Shown here: positions 22,456 through 30,898 of the stretch, piece by piece
Numbering within the stretch: the stretch's first letter is position 1
Layout: every line of letters starts with the position of its first letter
From: Acidiphilium sp. PA
GTDB lineage: Bacteria; Pseudomonadota; Alphaproteobacteria; Acetobacterales; Acetobacteraceae
NCBI RefSeq assembly: GCF_026191915.1
Contig: NZ_JAIMBY010000002.1
Coordinates: 248,001 to 312,000 of the forward strand
DNA: 64,000 nucleotides
Direction: 5' to 3'
Notes under the pieces: generated by a model
The model's database searches: none
What the model was told of the DNA's origin: nothing
What the model saw: the letters and a program-made list of their open reading frames with translations, nothing else
Position numbers and translations under genes: made by a program

Positions 22456-24183
22456 TCAGGTCTCGCTCTGCGCCTGCTGGTTGCGGCGACGGATCGCGGC
22501 ACCCAGAATATCGCCCAGCGAGGCGCCCGAATCCGACGAGCCGAAATCGGCCATCGCCTGCTTGTCCTCGTCGATCTCCTTGCCCTTCACCGTCAGCTGC
22601 AACTTGCGTGCTGCGCGGTCCACGGCGGTGATCTTCGCATCGATCTTTTCGCCGACGGCGAATTTGTCGGGGCGCTGATCGCCCTTGTCGCGGGCCAGTT
22701 CGGCGCGGCGGATGAAGCCGGTCAGCACGTCATCGACCTTCACCTCAAGCCCGTTGGTCTGCACCGCGGTGATCACGCAGGTCACGATCATGCCCTTGTG
22801 CACACGGTCGAGCACGCCGGCGGCAGGATCTTCCTCGAGCTGCTTCACGCCCAGGCTGATGCGCTCCTTCTCGACATCGACATCGAGTACCTTCGCCTTG
22901 ACGATATCGCCCTTGTTGTATTTGGCCATCGCCAGCTCGCCCGGCTCGTCCCACGACAGGTCGGACATATGAACCATGCCGTCGATTTCCGGCGCCAGAC
23001 CCACGAACAGGCCAAACTCGGTCATGTTGCGAATTTCGCCCTCGACCAGCGAGCCCACGGGGTGATCGTCCATGAACTGTTCCCACGGATTGCGCGAAAC
23101 CTGCTTCAGGCCCAACGAAATCCGCCGCTTGCTGGCATCGACGTCGAGCACCATGACCTCGACTTCCTGGCTCGTCGCCACGATCTTGCCGGGGTGCGCG
23201 TTCTTCTTGGTCCACGACATTTCCGAAACATGCACCAGGCCTTCGACGCCCGGCTCCAGCTCCACGAACGCACCGTAGTCGGTAATGTTCGTGACGCGGC
23301 CGGTCACCTTGATCCCAGGCGGATATTTGACGTCGACGCCTTCCCAAGGATCGGTCTCGAGCTGCTTCATGCCCAGGCTGATGCGCTGCGTGTCCGAATT
23401 GAACCGGATCACCTGCACCCGCACCGGCTGGCCGATGGTCAGCGCCTCGGCCGGGTGGTTGATCCGCCGCCACGCGATATCGGTCACGTGCAACAGACCA
23501 TCGACGCCGCCGAGATCGACGAACGCACCGTAATCGGTGATGTTCTTGACCACGCCATCGAGGATCTGGCCTTCCTTCAGGCCCTGGATCAGTTCCGAAC
23601 GCTGCTCGGCGCGGGTCTCTTCGAGCACCGCCCGGCGTGACACCACGATGTTGCCGCGCGCCCGGTCCATTTTCAGGATCTGGAACGGCTGGGACATGCC
23701 CATCAACGGCGTCACATCGCGCACCGGCCGGATATCGACCTGGCTGCCCGGCAGGAACGCGGTCGCCCCCCCGAGATCGACGGTGAACCCGCCCTTGACC
23801 CGGCCGTGGATGATGCCGTTGACGCGCGTCTGCGCCTCATGCGCGCGCTCGAGCGCGGTCCACGCCTCTTCGCGGCGGGCCTTCTCGCGCGACAGCACGA
23901 TCGAGCCGTCCTTGTCCTCGTAGCGCTCGATGAACAGGTCGAACACATCGCCCGGCTTGACTTCCTGGGCGCCGAATTCCTTGAGCGGAACCCGGCCTTC
24001 GCTCTTCAGCCCGACATCGACGACCACGAACTCGTCGTCGATGCGTGAAACGCGGCCTGAGACGACCGAGCCTTCGAACCCGGTATTGCTGCCCAATGTG
24101 CTGTCGAGCAGGGCTGCGAAGTCGTCAGTGCCGGTGTATTGGTCTGCGCCATGCTGGCGCGCAACAGTTGCGATTGAACCCAT
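22456..24183 (-). CDS. rpsA: 30S ribosomal protein S1
   Basis: The 575-aa mRNA-binding ribosomal protein, with six S1 OB-fold repeats. The first two are degenerate ribosome-binding types (GSVVSGRVSRIDDEFVVVDV). The later ones carry the typical ITDYGAFVDLGGVDGLLHVTD, with ISLGMKQLE or ISLGLKQV closing each unit. The length is normal for alphaproteobacteria. A leader of about 250 bp lies upstream with no other gene, suggesting its own promoter. Confidence 0.98.
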   Translation of the reverse strand: MGSIATVARQHGADQYTGTDDFAALLDSTLGSNTGFEGSVVSGRVSRIDDEFVVVDVGLKSEGRVPLKEFGAQEVKPGDVFDLFIERYEDKDGSIVLSREKARREEAWTALERAHEAQTRVNGIIHGRVKGGFTVDLGGATAFLPGSQVDIRPVRDVTPLMGMSQPFQILKMDRARGNIVVSRRAVLEETRAEQRSELIQGLKEGQILDGVVKNITDYGAFVDLGGVDGLLHVTDIAWRRINHPAEALTIGQPVRVQVIRFNSDTQRISLGMKQLETDPWEGVDVKYPPGIKVTGRVTNITDYGAFVELEPGVEGLVHVSEMSWTKKNAHPGKIVATSQEVEVMVLDVDASKRRISLGLKQVSRNPWEQFMDDHPVGSLVEGEIRNMTEFGLFVGLAPEIDGMVHMSDLSWDEPGELAMAKYNKGDIVKAKVLDVDVEKERISLGVKQLEEDPAAGVLDRVHKGMIVTCVITAVQTNGLEVKVDDVLTGFIRRAELARDKGDQRPDKFAVGEKIDAKITAVDRAARKLQLTVKGKEIDEDKQAMADFGSSDSGASLGDILGAAIRRRNQQAQSET

Positions 24184-24440: not shown

Positions 24441-26507
24441 TCAGCCGCGTCTTCCATCCGCCGCCAGCGCCGCGCGCAAGCGAAACCCGCACCGCGCCAG
24501 ATGCGCCCGCGCCGCATCCGCCCCCAGTCCGAACCGCACGGCGATGATCGCGGTGCTCACCTCATGGCCGCAATCCGCCAGCGCCCGCGCCGCCGCCGCA
24601 ACCTCGCACGGTGCAATCGCCGCGACGATACGCGCCGCCCGCGCGCGCAGCTTCGCATTGGTCGGCTTCAGATCGACCATATAGGGCCCGAACACCTTGC
24701 CCAGCCGGATCATCACCGTGCTCGACAGGCAATTCAGCGCGATCTTCTGCGTCGTCCCCGCCGACAGCCGGGTCGATCCCGCGATCACCTCCGCCCCGGT
24801 CGCAATCACCACCGCAATCTCGGCCGCCGCGGCAATCGGCCCGCCGCTGTTGGTGATGCTGCCGGTCAACGCCCCGGCCCGCCTGGCCGCCGCGATCGCC
24901 GCCAGCGTGAACGGCGTCGCGCCCGAGGCCGCGATCCCAACCAGAACATCCCCCGGCCCGATCGCATGAGCCGCCAGCAGCCCCGTCACCGCTTGCGCCT
25001 CATCCTCGGCACCCTCGACCGCGCCGCTCACCGCCGCCGCGCCACCCGCGATCAAGGGAATGATCACCCCCGGCGGCAGCGAAAACGTCGGCCCGCATTC
25101 GACCGCATCCAGCACCGCCAACCGCCCCGAAGTGCCGGCCCCGGCGTAGAACAGCCGCCCGCCCGCCGCCAGCCGCGCAGCGACCGCATCGGCCAGCCGG
25201 GCGAGGGCAGGGGCGGCATGCCGCAACGCCGCCTGCGCCGCCGCCTCCTGCGCCAGCAGCACCGCAATGATCGCCGCACTCGGCCGCATATCCAGATCAT
25301 CGAGGTCAGTCCGCACCGCCTCGGTCAACGGCAGCGTCGCCGCGCGCCGCACCGGTCGCGCCACGGGCCTGATCGCAACCCCCGCGATCCAGCAGTTGCG
25401 CACCTGGTACGCATCATCGAACCAGACCAGATCCGCCCGCAGCCCCGCCGCCAGCCGCCCCCGATCTGTCAGGCCCAGCGCGCGCGCCGGTGCCGCGGTC
25501 GCGGCCTCCAGCGCCGCCGCCGGCGCAATCCCCGCCGCGATCAACCGCCGCACCCCTTCATCAAGCGCGATCACCGCCCCGGTCAGCGTGCCATCCGGCC
25601 GCCGCACAGCGCCGTCGCGCACCATCGCCGGCCCGCCGCCGAACTCCGCCGCATACCCGTCCGGCATCCCGGCCAGGCTCACCGCATCCGTCACCGCAAC
25701 CGCCCGCCGGCCTGCCGCGGCAAACCCCAGCCGCAGGCTCAGCCCGTCGGCATGCACCGCATCCGCAATGAAACACGGCGCGATCCGTTCATCCGCCAGC
25801 GCCACCCCGATCACCCCGGGGTCGCGATGATGAAACGGCCGCATCGCGGTGAAAACATGCGTCGCCAGCCGCGCCCCGGCATCGACCGCGCGCGTCGCAC
25901 ACGCGGCATCCGCATCGGTATGACCCAGCGACACGACGATCCCCGCCGCCACCAGCCGCCCGATCGCCGCCATCGCCCCGGGCAGTTCCGGTGCCAGCGT
26001 CACCACAAGCAGCACCCGGCGCATCGCCGCATCCCCCAGCAGCGCATCGAGCGCCGCGGCATCCGGCGCCATCAACCAATCCGCCCGATGCGCCCCGCGC
26101 CGCGCGGGTGCCAGAAACGGCCCCTCCAGATGCAATCCCAGCAGCGCCGCACCCGGTTCGTCACCGGCCGGCGCGCGCATCGCCGCATCGATCCGCGCCG
26201 CCGCCGCCTGCAACCGATCGATCGGCGCGGTAATCACCGTCGGCAGAAAACCCGTCACCCCGCACGCCGCCAGCCGCTGGCAAAGCACCGCGAAATCCGC
26301 AGGTGCCGCCGTCGCGCAATCGATCCCGAACGCGCCGTTGTTGTGCAGATCGATCAGCCCGGGCGCCAGCACGCCCTCGGTCAGCACCACATCCGCCTCA
26401 TCCGGCGCATGATCGAGCACCAGCACGATCCGGCCATCCTCGACCACCACGCCGCCCGGCCCGATGATCGCGCCATCGATCAGCAGACGCGGTGCCGCGA
26501 TGATCAT
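24441..26507 (-). CDS. fused N-acetylglucosamine-6-phosphate deacetylase / MurNAc-6-phosphate etherase
   Basis: One 688-aa frame encodes two enzymes. Residues 1-385 are NagA: DLHNNG, HLEGP with metal ligand Glu128, SLGHTDA with His196, ATHVFTAM with His217, and VTDAVSLAG with catalytic Asp274. Residues 390-688 are MurQ: YAGAGTSGRLAVLDAVECGP with catalytic Glu470, VEGAEDEA, IAGSTRLSAGTTQK and PTNAKL. MurQ makes GlcNAc-6-P from MurNAc-6-P and NagA deacetylates it, so consecutive steps of cell-wall sugar recycling are joined, with the order reversed in the polypeptide. No stop or frameshift separates them. The start at 26507 lies 4 bp after the HIT gene. Confidence 0.93.
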   Translation of the reverse strand: MIIAAPRLLIDGAIIGPGGVVVEDGRIVLVLDHAPDEADVVLTEGVLAPGLIDLHNNGAFGIDCATAAPADFAVLCQRLAACGVTGFLPTVITAPIDRLQAAAARIDAAMRAPAGDEPGAALLGLHLEGPFLAPARRGAHRADWLMAPDAAALDALLGDAAMRRVLLVVTLAPELPGAMAAIGRLVAAGIVVSLGHTDADAACATRAVDAGARLATHVFTAMRPFHHRDPGVIGVALADERIAPCFIADAVHADGLSLRLGFAAAGRRAVAVTDAVSLAGMPDGYAAEFGGGPAMVRDGAVRRPDGTLTGAVIALDEGVRRLIAAGIAPAAALEAATAAPARALGLTDRGRLAAGLRADLVWFDDAYQVRNCWIAGVAIRPVARPVRRAATLPLTEAVRTDLDDLDMRPSAAIIAVLLAQEAAAQAALRHAAPALARLADAVAARLAAGGRLFYAGAGTSGRLAVLDAVECGPTFSLPPGVIIPLIAGGAAAVSGAVEGAEDEAQAVTGLLAAHAIGPGDVLVGIAASGATPFTLAAIAAARRAGALTGSITNSGGPIAAAAEIAVVIATGAEVIAGSTRLSAGTTQKIALNCLSSTVMIRLGKVFGPYMVDLKPTNAKLRARAARIVAAIAPCEVAAAARALADCGHEVSTAIIAVRFGLGADAARAHLARCGFRLRAALAADGRRG

Positions 26508-26511
26508 CGGC

Positions 26512-26901
26512 TCAGCCTGCCAGCATCGGCCCCAGCGGGCGGCCCGCGAAGATATGAACATGCAGATGCGGCACTTCCTGGTGGCTGTCCGGCCCCATAT
26601 TCGCGAGCAGCCGATAGCCGCTGTCCTCGAACCCGAGCAGCCGCGCCACATGCCCCACCGCGCGGATGAATCCCGCGATCTCCGCCTCCGAAGCGTTCGC
26701 CGCGAAATCGGCGAACGCGACATACCGCCCCTTCGGGATCACCAGCACATGATGCGGCGCCTGCGGGTTGATGTCGTGAAACGCCAGCGCGAACGCGTCC
26801 TCGAACACTGTGCGGCACGGGATCTCCCCGCGCAAAATCCTCGCGAACACGTTCTGATCATCATACGGCGGCTTGCCGCTCACGCCAGGCTTCAAATTCA
26901 T
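26512..26901 (-). CDS. HIT-family nucleotide-binding protein
   Basis: A 129-aa histidine triad protein (HinT-like). The triad is HLHVHIF near the C-terminus, after [23 protein letters not shown] is the other family block. Such proteins hydrolyse AMP-linked phosphoramidates. The ATG at 26901 overlaps the hisE stop by 4 bp, and nagA-murQ follows after 4 bp, so it is embedded in the histidine transcript. Confidence 0.93.
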
Positions 26902-27467
26902 GGAATCTTCCTCGTCTCCGCGATCGACAACATGACCGGCCGCGCCGATTTCTCGGCAATTCCGGAAATCCCCTCGCGCCGCTTCAGCTCGCTCCACACA
27001 TCCTCCGGCCGCAGCCCCACCGCGACCCACATCACCAGCAGATGATAGAGCACATCGGCACTTTCCGCGATCAGCGCGTCCCGATTCCCCGCCACCGCCT
27101 CGATCAGACATTCGACCGATTCCTCGCCGAATTTCTGCGCCACCTTGTTCACCCCGCGCGAGAGCAGCCGCGCCGAATGGCTGATCAGCGGATCGGCGTT
27201 CTTGCGCGCAATAATCGTCGACCACAGCCGGTCCATCACCCGCGCATCCGGCGCCTCCGGATCGAGCGGCGGCACCGGTGCGAACCGTGCTGCCACCGGC
27301 ATCTTGGCCTTCAGCGCCTTAACTTTGGCCGCCTTTGTTTTCGCCGCCTTCGTCTTGGCCACCTTGGCATTCGCGGTCTTCGCCCTCACGGCCTTGGTTT
27401 TACCGTTCTTGCCGCTCACCGCCGCGTCCGGCAGCATCGTATCGGTTTTGGAAAGTTTCTTGGGCAT
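26898..27467 (-). CDS. hisE: phosphoribosyl-ATP pyrophosphatase with lysine-rich N-terminal extension
   Basis: HisE hydrolyses PR-ATP to PR-AMP, the second step of histidine synthesis. The catalytic part is residues ~78-165 ([46 protein letters not shown]). In front is an unusual tail of about 70 residues with Lys/Ala pentads ([18 protein letters not shown]), like the tails of histone H1-like proteins. A shorter protein could start at an ATG at 27302 (MPVAARFAP), but 27467 is open in frame. It overlaps the HIT gene by 4 bp. Confidence 0.93.
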
Positions 27468-27480
27468 GCAATCCTCTGCG

Positions 27481-28245
27481 TTATGATCCGGTCAGCCTGA
27501 CCGGCAGGCCGGCGCGGTGCAAGCTCGCCTTGACCTCTGAAATCGTAAATTGACCAAAATGAAATACGCTGGCCGCCAGCAGCCCGGTCGCGCCGACCCG
27601 CGCGCCCTGGGTGAAATGATCGAGCGTGCCAACCCCGCCCGACGCGACGATCGGAATCGTCACCGCCCCCGCCACCGCCTGCAGCAATGCAAGATCGAAC
27701 CCGCTGCCGGTGCCGTCCCGGTCCATCGAGGTCAGCAGAATCTCGCCCGCGCCGCGCGCCTGCATTTCGCCGCACCACGCAACCGCGTCGATCCCGGTCG
27801 GCTGGCGCCCGCCATGGGTGAAAATCTCCCACCTTCCCGCCGCCACCGCCCGCGCATCCACCGCCACCACCACGCACTGGCTGCCGAATTTCCGTGCCGC
27901 CTCGTTGATAAAGTCAGGCCGCGCGATCGCCGCCGAGTTGATGCTGCATTTATCGGCCCCCGCCAGCAACAGGCGCCGCATATCCTCGGTGCTCCTGATC
28001 CCGCCGCCCACCGTCAGTGGCAGAAACACCCGCGCCGCGGTGCGCGACACCACATCGATGATCGTGTCCCGGTTCTCATGACTCGCCGTGATATCCAGGA
28101 ACGTCAGCTCATCGGCGCCCGCCGCGTCATACACCAGCGCCTGCTCGACCGGATCGCCCGCGTCGCGCAACGACACGAAATTGACACCCTTGACGACCCG
28201 CCCGTCCTTCACATCGAGGCATGGGATCACCCGCAGTTTCAGCAC
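27481..28245 (-). CDS. hisF: imidazole glycerol phosphate synthase subunit HisF
   Basis: The cyclase subunit that forms IGP and AICAR using ammonia from HisH. A 254-aa beta/alpha barrel with both catalytic aspartates: Asp11 in PCLDVKDG and Asp130 in VVVAVDARA. It overlaps the hisA stop by 7 bp and is followed by hisE after 13 bp. Confidence 0.98.
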
Positions 28246-28979
28246 GTCCCGGCCTCCGCCAAAGCCGCCGCCGGATCGAGGCTGCCATCATACAACGCCC
28301 GCCCGATGATCGTGCCCACGATATTCCCCGTCCGCCCCGCCGCCGCGCGCAGGGCAATGATGTCGCCAATTCCCGCCACCCCGCCCGACGCAATCACCGG
28401 TATCGCAACCGATCGCGCCAGCGCCTCGGTTGCCGCCAGGTTCAACCCGGCCAGCATGCCATCGCGCGCGATATCGGTGTGAATGATCGCGGCAATCCCC
28501 GCATCCTCCAGCCGCCGCGCCATGTCGGTCGCCGCCAGCGTCGAAACCTCGGCCCAGCCCTCGGTCGCCACCATCCCCTCTGCCGCATCGATCCCGACCA
28601 CGATCCGCCCCGGAAACGCCGCCGCCGCCGTGCGCACCAGCGCCGGATTTTTCACCGCCGCACTGCCCAGAATCACACGCGCAACCCCCAGCGCCAACCA
28701 CGCCTCGATCCCCGCCATATCCCTGATGCCGCCGCCGAGCTGCACCGGCATGCGCACCGCGGCCAGAATCGCCCGCACCGCGGCGGCATTCACCGGCTTG
28801 CCGGCAAACGCGCCATTCAGATCGACCACATGCAGCGCGGTAAACCCCTGCGCCTCGAATCGCCGCGCCTGCGCCGCCGGGTCATCGGCATACACCGTCG
28901 CCTGGTCCATCGCGCCGCGCTTGAGGCGCACGCAGGCGCCGTCTTTCAGGTCGATCGCTGGATAGAGGGTCAAGGACAT
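28239..28979 (-). CDS. hisA: phosphoribosylformimino-AICAR ribotide isomerase
   Basis: The ProFAR isomerase of histidine synthesis. A 246-aa barrel starting [14 protein letters not shown] (catalytic Asp10), with the second acid in VVGIDAAEG and the phosphate loop GGGIRD. It overlaps hisF. A dispersed repeat (copy D) lies immediately upstream, separating it from the GNAT and hisH genes. Confidence 0.98.
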
Positions 28980-28981
28980 CA

Positions 28982-29105
28982 GAAGTGTTCTTTTTTGTAA
29001 AAAAGAACCAAAAAACTTCTATTCGTTCGGCCCATACCGGTTTCAACGCCCATGCCCCAGCGAAAAAAAGTTTTTTGCTTCTTTTTTACAAAAAAGAAGC
29101 CTTCT
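28982..29105. repeat. dispersed hairpin-ended repeat, copy D
   Basis: The left end at 28982-29019 has TTCTTTTTTGTAAAAAAGAA, then CCAAAAAACTTC. The core CTATTCGTTCGGCCCATACC is close to that of copy A. The right end at 29064-29105 has AAAGTTTTTTGCTTC and a second hairpin. It lies 2 bp before hisA, inside the histidine gene set. Confidence 0.88.
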
Positions 29106-29118
29106 TCTTCTCGTCTCA

Positions 29119-29676
29119 TCACTGCGCCTGCAACAATTTATAATAAAAATGCCCCGCCACGGTTCGTCCTTCCGCCCGTGCATAGGCCGGATGCGTCCCC
29201 CAGCGCAGAAATCCCGCCCCTTCATACAGCGCGATCGCCGCCTGCTGGGTATCGCGCACATCGAGGTTCAACACCTGATACCCCAGCGCCCGCGCCCGAT
29301 CCTCGACCCGCCGCAAAATCAACCGCGCCAGCCCGTGCCCGCGCGCATAGGGGGCCACGAAATTCAGCGCGATCGTCGCACCGAACGCCTGCGCCTCGTT
29401 ATTGCGCGGTGGCCGTACCAACTGTGCTGCGCCATAGATCGTGCCGTCCATTCGCCCCACGAACAACTCGCGTTCCGGCACCATGACCACGCCGCGAAAA
29501 TACTGCTCCAGCGCCGCTCGCCCCGGCGGCTTGATCCAGCCGAATCCCCCACCATCGATGATCGCCGCATCCGCCGCCTCGCACAGCGCCTGCATGTCGT
29601 CATCCCCGATCACCGCGAGCCGGTCGACCGCCAGCGACTCCGGCGGCGGCATGTCGCGGATCGGTGCGATCGTCAT
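29119..29676 (-). CDS. GNAT-family N-acetyltransferase
   Basis: A 185-aa acetyltransferase. The acetyl-CoA loop is in FVAPYARGHGLARLIL, followed by VLNLDVRDTQQAAIALYEGA, the typical motif B. The ATG at 29676 overlaps the hisH stop (TAATG), so the two are coupled; the frame extends only 4 codons further. The substrate is unknown. A GNAT inside the his operon may be only a passenger. Confidence 0.88.
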   Translation of the reverse strand: MTIAPIRDMPPPESLAVDRLAVIGDDDMQALCEAADAAIIDGGGFGWIKPPGRAALEQYFRGVVMVPERELFVGRMDGTIYGAAQLVRPPRNNEAQAFGATIALNFVAPYARGHGLARLILRRVEDRARALGYQVLNLDVRDTQQAAIALYEGAGFLRWGTHPAYARAEGRTVAGHFYYKLLQAQ

Positions 29677-30311
29677 TACGGACTCCACCGCAGAAAATTA
29701 CCCAGAATCGTCAACCCGACCTCCTGGCTCTTCTCGACATGAAACTGCGTCCCCGCCCGGTTGCCGCGCGCCACCATCGCGACCACCGGCCCGCCATAAT
29801 CGGTCGTCGCAATCACCGGCGCCGGCGCATCGGTGCGCAGCGCATAGGAATGCACGAAATACGCATGATCGCCGGTCTTCAGCCCGTCCAGCAACGGATG
29901 CGCGCCAGGCGTGAACACCAGCTCGTTCCACCCCATATGCGGCAGCCGCAAGCCGTCTGCCTCGATGGGCGCGATATCGCCGGCAATCCAGCCGAACCCC
30001 GCCGTCGTGCCATGCTCCAACCCGCGCGCCGCCATCAACTGCATGCCGACGCAAATGCCCAGAAACGGCGCCCCGTCATCCACGCGCCGATGCATCGCCG
30101 CCGCCAGCCCCGGCCGCGCCGCCAGCCCCTGCGCGCAATCGGCGAACGCGCCCTGGCCCGGCAGCACGATCCGATCGGCCTGCCCGACCACATCGGGATC
30201 ATCGCTGATCGTCACAACCGCCCCGATCCCGCACCGCGCCGCCGCGAGCTCAAGCCCCCGCGCCGCCGAAGCCAGATTGCCGCTGCCGTAGTCGATCACC
30301 GCGATCCTCAA
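29676..30311 (-). CDS. hisH: imidazole glycerol phosphate synthase glutaminase subunit HisH
   Basis: Supplies ammonia to HisF from glutamine. A 211-aa class I amidotransferase with nucleophile Cys87 in FLGICVGMQ and the His-Glu pair in TQFHVEKSQ. Its start overlaps the hisB stop by 4 bp. Confidence 0.98.
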   Translation of the reverse strand: MRIAVIDYGSGNLASAARGLELAAARCGIGAVVTISDDPDVVGQADRIVLPGQGAFADCAQGLAARPGLAAAMHRRVDDGAPFLGICVGMQLMAARGLEHGTTAGFGWIAGDIAPIEADGLRLPHMGWNELVFTPGAHPLLDGLKTGDHAYFVHSYALRTDAPAPVIATTDYGGPVVAMVARGNRAGTQFHVEKSQEVGLTILGNFLRWSP

Positions 30312-30898
30312 AGCACCCCCTTGGTCGAAGGCACCGCACCCGCCGCCCGCGCATCCGGCTCAACCGCCATCCGCAGCGCCCGCGCCACCGCCTTGAACGC
30401 CGCCTCGGCGACATGATGCGCATTATGCCCGGCCCGCTGGTTCACATGCAGCGCAAACTGCCCGTTCGCCGCCACCGCCTGGAAAAACTCCTGCACCAGT
30501 TGCGTATCCATATCCCCGAGCATCGGCCGCTCGAACGCGACGTTGAACGCCAGAAACCCCCGCCCCGACAAATCGATCGCCGCCTCGCACAACGCCTCAT
30601 CCATCGGCACCGCGGCAAACCCGAACCGCGTCACTCCGCGCTTGTCGCCCAGCGCCTCGCGGATCGCCTGGCCCAGCACGATACCAACATCCTCGATGGT
30701 ATGATGCGCATCGATATGCAGATCCCCCTCGGCCCGCACATCAAGGTCGATCATCGCATGCCGCCCGAACGCGGTCAGCATATGGTCGAAAAACCCGATC
30801 CCGGTGGCGATTTCGGTATGCCCCGTGCCATCCAGATCAAGCATCAACTCGATCGCGGTTTCGGAAGTTTTACGACTGATGGTTGCGTTGCGGCTCAT
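30308..30898 (-). CDS. hisB: imidazoleglycerol-phosphate dehydratase
   Basis: Dehydrates IGP to imidazole acetol phosphate. A monofunctional 196-aa enzyme with no phosphatase half. Both Mn-binding motifs are present: DAHHTIEDVG and NAHHVAEAAFKA. The start MSRNATISRKTSET at 30898 is typical of the family. It is the first gene of the leftward his set; repeat copy E lies just upstream. Confidence 0.98.
   Translation of the reverse strand: MSRNATISRKTSETAIELMLDLDGTGHTEIATGIGFFDHMLTAFGRHAMIDLDVRAEGDLHIDAHHTIEDVGIVLGQAIREALGDKRGVTRFGFAAVPMDEALCEAAIDLSGRGFLAFNVAFERPMLGDMDTQLVQEFFQAVAANGQFALHVNQRAGHNAHHVAEAAFKAVARALRMAVEPDARAAGAVPSTKGVL

Follow-up and report, generated by a model that had tools for sequence, protein, structure and literature searches.

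In the window, a 64,000-nucleotide stretch of DNA from Acidiphilium sp. PA, we traced a single minus-strand open reading frame of 688 codons plus a stop, with zero internal stops in its translation, in which a predicted GlcNAc-6-P deacetylase (NagA) and a predicted MurNAc-6-P etherase (MurQ) are joined by a linker of ~12 residues (Table 1). The original prediction had described two enzymes of MurNAc-6-P recycling in one 688-aa protein, and the reading frame, the NCBIfam matches, and the one-frame orthologues all agree with this description; NagA is N-terminal and MurQ is C-terminal, in the reverse of the reaction order, as had also been stated. The NagA half scores 251.4 bits against TIGR00221 (nagA; cut-off 225.65; residues 15-374), and the MurQ half scores 315.4 bits against NF003915 (MurQ subfamily; cut-off 168; residues 393-683) and 265.5 bits against NF009222 (cut-off 255). 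The window copy falls below the cut-offs of two other models, the MurQ equivalog TIGR00274 (258.5 bits; cut-off 302), which is passed by the Acidocella aquatica fusion copy with 306.3 bits, and NF008371 for E. coli-type NagA (190.5 bits; cut-off 483). The fusion occupies one place in its own genome at E 0.001 or better, and the 688-aa protein is, judged from its sequence, probably bifunctional and a real, conserved enzyme.

The open frame of the fusion extends upstream to 26723, and this extension falls inside the HIT-domain gene. The ATG of the fusion at 26507 lies 4 nt after the HIT stop; therefore, translational coupling between the two genes is likely. The gene order hisB-hisH-GNAT-hisA-hisF-hisE-HIT precedes the fusion in the window and in L031, L065, L066, and L067, and the identical his-HIT order in L064 is followed by the MurQ half alone. 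The GNAT acetyltransferase gene lies between hisH and hisA (29119-29688 of the window, minus strand), as it does in five other Acidiphilium loci (L031, L064-L067). We saw none of the his-HIT neighbours near the Acidocella-like copies L032-L035 and L071. In the window's genome, anmK is on the same contig as the fusion, about 104 kb away. Strict co-expression of the two enzymes, as originally proposed, holds in the trivial sense that one reading frame gives one-to-one synthesis, but in Acidiphilium the gene sits behind the his cluster and, in the window's genome, far from anmK.

Table 1. Location of the fusion gene, its domains and neighbours in the window, and of kinase-MurQ fusions at other loci.
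Feature	Location	Strand	Evidence and remarks
nagA-murQ fusion gene	24441..26507	-	688 aa, ATG start, stop 24441-24443; families and one-frame orthologues
NagA domain, residues 1-382, predicted GlcNAc-6-P deacetylase	25362..26507	-	TIGR00221 above cut-off; structure match 2vhl; H55, N57, E128, H140, H196, H217, H252, D274
Linker, residues 383-394 (borders set by the analysts)	25326..25361	-	varies among copies; pLDDT <50 at 387-391
MurQ domain, residues 395-688, predicted MurNAc-6-P etherase	24444..25325	-	NF003915 above cut-off; structure match 4s12; E470, E501
HIT-domain gene, directly upstream of the fusion	26512..26895	-	PF01230; start inferred
his cluster hisB-hisH-GNAT-hisA-hisF-hisE, upstream of HIT	26898..30898	-	families and synteny
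rpsA (30S ribosomal protein S1), next downstream gene	22456..24183	-	family
Kinase-MurQ fusion, G026 (this family)	L069 3428-5266	-	PF01869
Kinase-MurQ fusion, G619 (family f190, same phylum)	L098 2111-3988	+	PF01869
Kinase-MurQ fusion, G720 (family f190, same phylum)	L099 2293-4152	-	PF01869
Kinase-MurQ fusion, G800 (family f190, same phylum)	L100 2144-3988	-	PF01869

The key residues of both enzymes, which the original prediction held to be retained, are recovered by alignment with solved structures. The NagA half keeps E128, H140, H196, H217, H252, and D274. Among these, D274, E128, H196, and H217 correspond to D273, E131, H195, and H216 of E. coli NagA, and by their roles in that enzyme we take E128, H196, and H217 to be the Glu/His/His metal ligands and D274 to be the catalytic Asp. 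D274 aligns with the residue altered in 2p53, the D273N structure from E. coli, whose title names D273. In the MurQ half, E470 and E501, presumably the two catalytic glutamates of MurQ, are retained in the alignment with 4s12 and 4lzj and are invariant across all 16 aligned fusions; a literature search on MurQ Glu83 gave no match. The first metal motif of the NagA half is H55-N56-N57 (HxN, with H55 at 26343-26345 of the window), instead of the HxH in B. subtilis NagA 2vhl or the QxN in E. coli NagA 1ymy, and HxN is present in 15 of the 16 aligned fusions, the L032 copy having QxN. As an intermediate of the B. subtilis and E. coli forms, this motif may be relevant to one- or two-metal chemistry. 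The QxN motif of L032 was also observed in L006.

Purifying selection acts on the two halves alike, with dN/dS values of 0.115-0.259 in the NagA half and 0.111-0.242 in the MurQ half over the same eight fusion pairs, some of which have a common member. At the junction, dN/dS is at least 1.0 in four of the six computable pairs and 0.14-0.19 in the other two, over 11-19 codons, which are too short for firm values. The stretch from W373 to E396 comprises 24-25 residues in Acidiphilium compared with 17 in the Acidocella-like copies, and its sequence is mostly dissimilar. The AlphaFold2 model obtained with a 66-row alignment has a pLDDT of 95 and a pTM of 0.64, residues 387-391 falling below a pLDDT of 50; a model from the 16 fusion rows alone (pLDDT 65) was not used. 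In VIA-align comparisons, the NagA half matches 2vhl with a Z of 53.7 and an rmsd of 2.2 over 381 aligned residues, and the MurQ half matches 4s12 with a Z of 37.1 and an rmsd of 1.4 over 292 aligned residues. The linker is predicted to be disordered, and the relative placement of the two domains is uncertain in this monomer model at its pTM.

We searched 397 sampled genomes of the family for matches at 1e-70 or better, scoring the best two candidates per genome, and obtained matches in 31: 13 from the window's genus (g1, Acidiphilium), 13 from g69 (Acidocella), one from g24 (G023), and four in which the match is unfused (G006, G026, G058, and G884). Of the 13 Acidiphilium genomes, 11 carry the two halves in a single frame; contig ends break the G120 gene into two pieces, whereas G122 has the MurQ half alone. 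The one-frame fusion is likewise present in 11 of the 13 matched Acidocella genomes, a denominator of matched genomes only rather than of the whole genus, and contig ends truncate the copies in G1083 and G1096. The one-frame fusion is thus found in 22 of the 397 family genomes, the window included. The Acidiphilium locus L002 matches L031, the record from Acidiphilium rubrum, at 100% over 5058 bp, so that g1 contains A. rubrum, and L118 is identical to Acidocella aquatica L035 (100% over 5013 bp), so that g69 contains A. aquatica; both genera are placed by the NCBI taxonomy in Acidocellaceae, together with Acidisoma.

In the class search (385 genomes, best three candidates each) and the phylum search (398 genomes, best two candidates each), the window alone spans both halves among the matches listed, and none of the 242 matching plasmid records covers 80% of the query at a single place. 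A scan for the pattern on contigs gave seven loci, every one a close relative. The search stayed within the window's own phylum, and a convergent NagA-MurQ fusion is possible in others. Our searches of an open-access library showed no report of the NagA-MurQ fusion; subscription papers and domain databases lay outside the scope of that search, and an earlier notice in them is possible. L101, a 659-aa frame of G086 that contains MurQ, was considered as a further fusion; Pfam finds the MurQ half only, and we claim no partner for it.

Several copies are altered or reduced. In L120, L121, and L122 of the Acidocella group, MurQ terminates some 20-30 residues early, and the fusion in G023 (L072 5300-7312) has a frame break and a missing stretch inside NagA, reflecting either decay or an assembly fault. 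In G122, the MurQ half (L064 8629-9981) stands directly behind HIT, and the sole other full-length NagA-like match (L103 4707-5915; 282 bits with TIGR00221) is unrelated, with 38% identity. The new N-terminus of this MurQ contains CATTGCGAGG...GAAGCAATCC at 1507-1546 of L048, the same place as 9049-9088 of L064; this sequence is absent from all the other loci of the 130 and from the window. A 20-nt part of the break sequence has a second copy, 85% similar, near hisF (8067-8086 of L064). Repeat-like sequences of this kind are dispersed repeats in bacteria, and such a sequence may have helped to delete the NagA half in G122, an Acidiphilium that probably lost it secondarily. Because G122 carries the MurQ half only, MurQ is viable alone, unless the assembly is wrong at this place. 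The disrupted fusion in G023 and the loss of NagA in G122 therefore suggest that the fused state is dispensable in places.

Separate versions of the two genes are found in other members of the family. In G006, the order is SIS-domain gene, nagA, murQ, and anmK, and nagA shares 8 nt with murQ in an overlap; the first gene, in which Pfam shows SIS domains only, we take to be nagB-II-like. In G058, the SIS gene followed by nagA is kept and murQ is on a separate contig. In G026, the gene after nagA encodes a BadF-type kinase joined to MurQ, and anmK comes about 1.5 kb further on. The fusions group with the NagA of G006, G026, and G058 in the NagA tree (SH-aLRT 100) and with the MurQ of G006, G026, and G023 in the MurQ tree (SH-aLRT 99), and both clades are separate from the corresponding proteins of the other family members sampled. 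These trees were built by a quick method, with support by SH-aLRT only and domain borders shifted by up to about 4 residues. They exclude partial and duplicate loci (among them L031, L036, L037, L047, and L049), the kinase-MurQ loci L098-L100, L101, and all g69 loci (L118-L130), and the broken fusion of G023 (L004) is labelled as separate in the MurQ tree and is absent from the NagA tree. Among the non-fused MurQ loci L008-L030, murQ is followed by nagA in 12 of 23, and no NagA lies within the short flanks in the other 11. Two NagA/MurQ lineages of opposite gene order were observed in the family, nagA before murQ (L068) and murQ before nagA (L009, L011-L015, L019, L020, L022-L024, and L026).

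We propose that the overlapping nagA and murQ of an old operon (nagB-II-like, nagA, murQ, anmK) would have fused in the common ancestor of Acidiphilium and Acidocella, and that the fusion gene would afterwards have left its old neighbours to lie, in Acidiphilium, behind the his cluster. The domain order would be the reverse of the reactions because a gene order like that of G006, nagA before murQ, was inherited. The two partners stand apart in the other relatives seen, consistent with the earlier statement that these enzymes are normally separate; two genes in relatives had also been named as a sign against the fusion, and these occur in the more distant relatives only, where they mark the likely ancestral state instead of an artefact. 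We infer a single origin, which fits the data.

The recycling pathway was surveyed in 18 genomes, namely the 13 of Acidiphilium together with G068, G023, G006, G026, and G058, of which 15 belong to the fusion lineages, including G122. AnmK is present in all 18, including the 15 of the carrier lineages, and NagZ is above its cut-off in 17, not being found in G120, a genome that is 83% complete; ROK-family proteins occur in all 18, counted as a family without assignment to NagK. A BadF-type kinase is present in two of the genomes (G006 and G026), and a close NagB-II-like gene is also present in two (G006 and G058), both unfused; in the other 16, NagB-II-like matches have at most 35% identity and lie mostly in frames long enough for GlmS. 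No match to NagB TIGR00502 is above the cut-off in any of the 18 genomes, weaker matches occurring in 10 (the best, 130 bits, in G006), and no deaminase above cut-off was found in the 15 carrier-lineage genomes. As AnmK is present and no deaminase is above cut-off in these 15 genomes, salvage is the likely role of the fusion.

In the proposed route, AnmK would make MurNAc-6-P from anhydro-MurNAc, the C-terminal MurQ half would split the lactyl ether of MurNAc-6-P into GlcNAc-6-P and D-lactate, and the N-terminal NagA half would strip the acetyl group from GlcNAc-6-P, giving GlcN-6-P and acetate. The GlcN-6-P would then enter UDP-GlcNAc synthesis, presumably rather than feed glycolysis or catabolism. 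Another fate of the sugars is possible, given the weak TIGR00502 matches and a possible AmgK/MurU route; MurQ and AmgK-MurU are presented as alternatives in beta- and gammaproteobacteria (PMC5371407), and Caulobacter is described as being without MurQ (PMC13046382, PMC11980594). Overall, we consider it highly probable that the fusion is a bifunctional peptidoglycan-salvage enzyme, derived from a nagA-murQ fusion in the Acidiphilium-Acidocella ancestor, with both activities predicted and without special channelling; its two domains would fold independently, with a flexible linker between them. A further reading seems improbable, in which a single dedicated protein turns MurNAc-6-P into GlcN-6-P and so would commit cell-wall sugar to salvage in acidophiles that lack a recognisable deaminase, GlcNAc-6-P being handed on in cis. 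In this reading, the self-association of NagA and MurQ, each of which self-associates, would build a larger mixed assembly.

An error of sequencing or assembly that conceals a stop and a start at the junction, which the original prediction had raised against itself, has a negligible probability; nothing was found in its favour, and it is ruled out by the 21 other family genomes in which both halves share one frame, at identities down to about 55%. The fused rows do not form one supported clade in the free trees; therefore, it is conceivable that the neighbouring genes fused twice in parallel, in Acidiphilium and again in Acidocella, and the linker lengths and gene neighbourhoods of the two genera differ as such a history would have it. 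However, the two halves group within the same small clade, and a one-origin constraint is not rejected (AU p 0.64 for NagA and 0.54 for MurQ), the trees with the fused rows held together fitting slightly better than the quick free trees, and we regard two independent events as unlikely.

Why the fusion persists is a separate matter. It is retained in 25 of 26 matched genomes across the two genera, contig-cut copies included, and away from its likely old neighbours, which weighs against a neutral or expression-level accident, in which the stop between overlapping genes was lost harmlessly and the two halves came to be made one-to-one. The 8-nt overlap in G006, the variable linker, and the secondary loss of one half in G122 all suit such an accident, for which we see roughly even chances and which is compatible with the salvage enzyme described above. 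The original prediction took the fusion to imply channelling, such that it would be retained because GlcNAc-6-P formed at the MurQ site is passed on to that of NagA. This agrees with the consecutive steps of the two enzymes and with the presence of a one-frame fusion in 22 of 26 matched genomes across the two genera, the other four being the contig-cut copies of G120, G1083, and G1096 and the loss in G122; but the W373-E396 stretch differs between the genera in length and has little sequence in common, the linker is predicted to be disordered with the domain placement uncertain, the domain order is that of G006-like genes, and G122 manages with MurQ alone. In addition, with NagZ and ROK-family proteins present, free GlcNAc may be a further source of GlcNAc-6-P for NagA. 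We found no evidence that fusing NagA and MurQ alters the function of either enzyme, and channelling is not supported and quite doubtful as the reason for retention.

The natural fused, split (G006), and probably secondarily unfused (G122) versions of this two-step pathway within one family provide a clean set for testing the effect of fusing consecutive enzymes. The NagA-MurQ architecture is a domain marker for the Acidiphilium-Acidocella group, and a single-function annotation would be predicted to miss one activity. Compared with known NagA proteins (TIGR00221; 2vhl, 1ymy, and 6fv3), the window protein has the same fold, with D274 (E. coli D273) and E128/H196/H217 aligned, but it differs by the fusion to MurQ and by an HxN first metal motif that is neither HxH nor QxN. 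With MurQ proteins (NF003915/TIGR00274; 4lzj and 4s12), it shares the whole domain and both glutamates, the differences being the preceding NagA and linker and a TIGR00274 score below the cut-off. MurQ fusions as such are already represented by the kinase-MurQ proteins in four other genomes examined. In these BadF-type kinase-MurQ fusions, MurQ is likewise the C-terminal half of a two-enzyme fusion, but the partner is a kinase instead of a deacetylase, and a separate origin is presumed. Finally, the separate nagA and murQ found in other Acetobacteraceae and in E. coli-type recycling serve the same two reactions, but with two genes instead of one.
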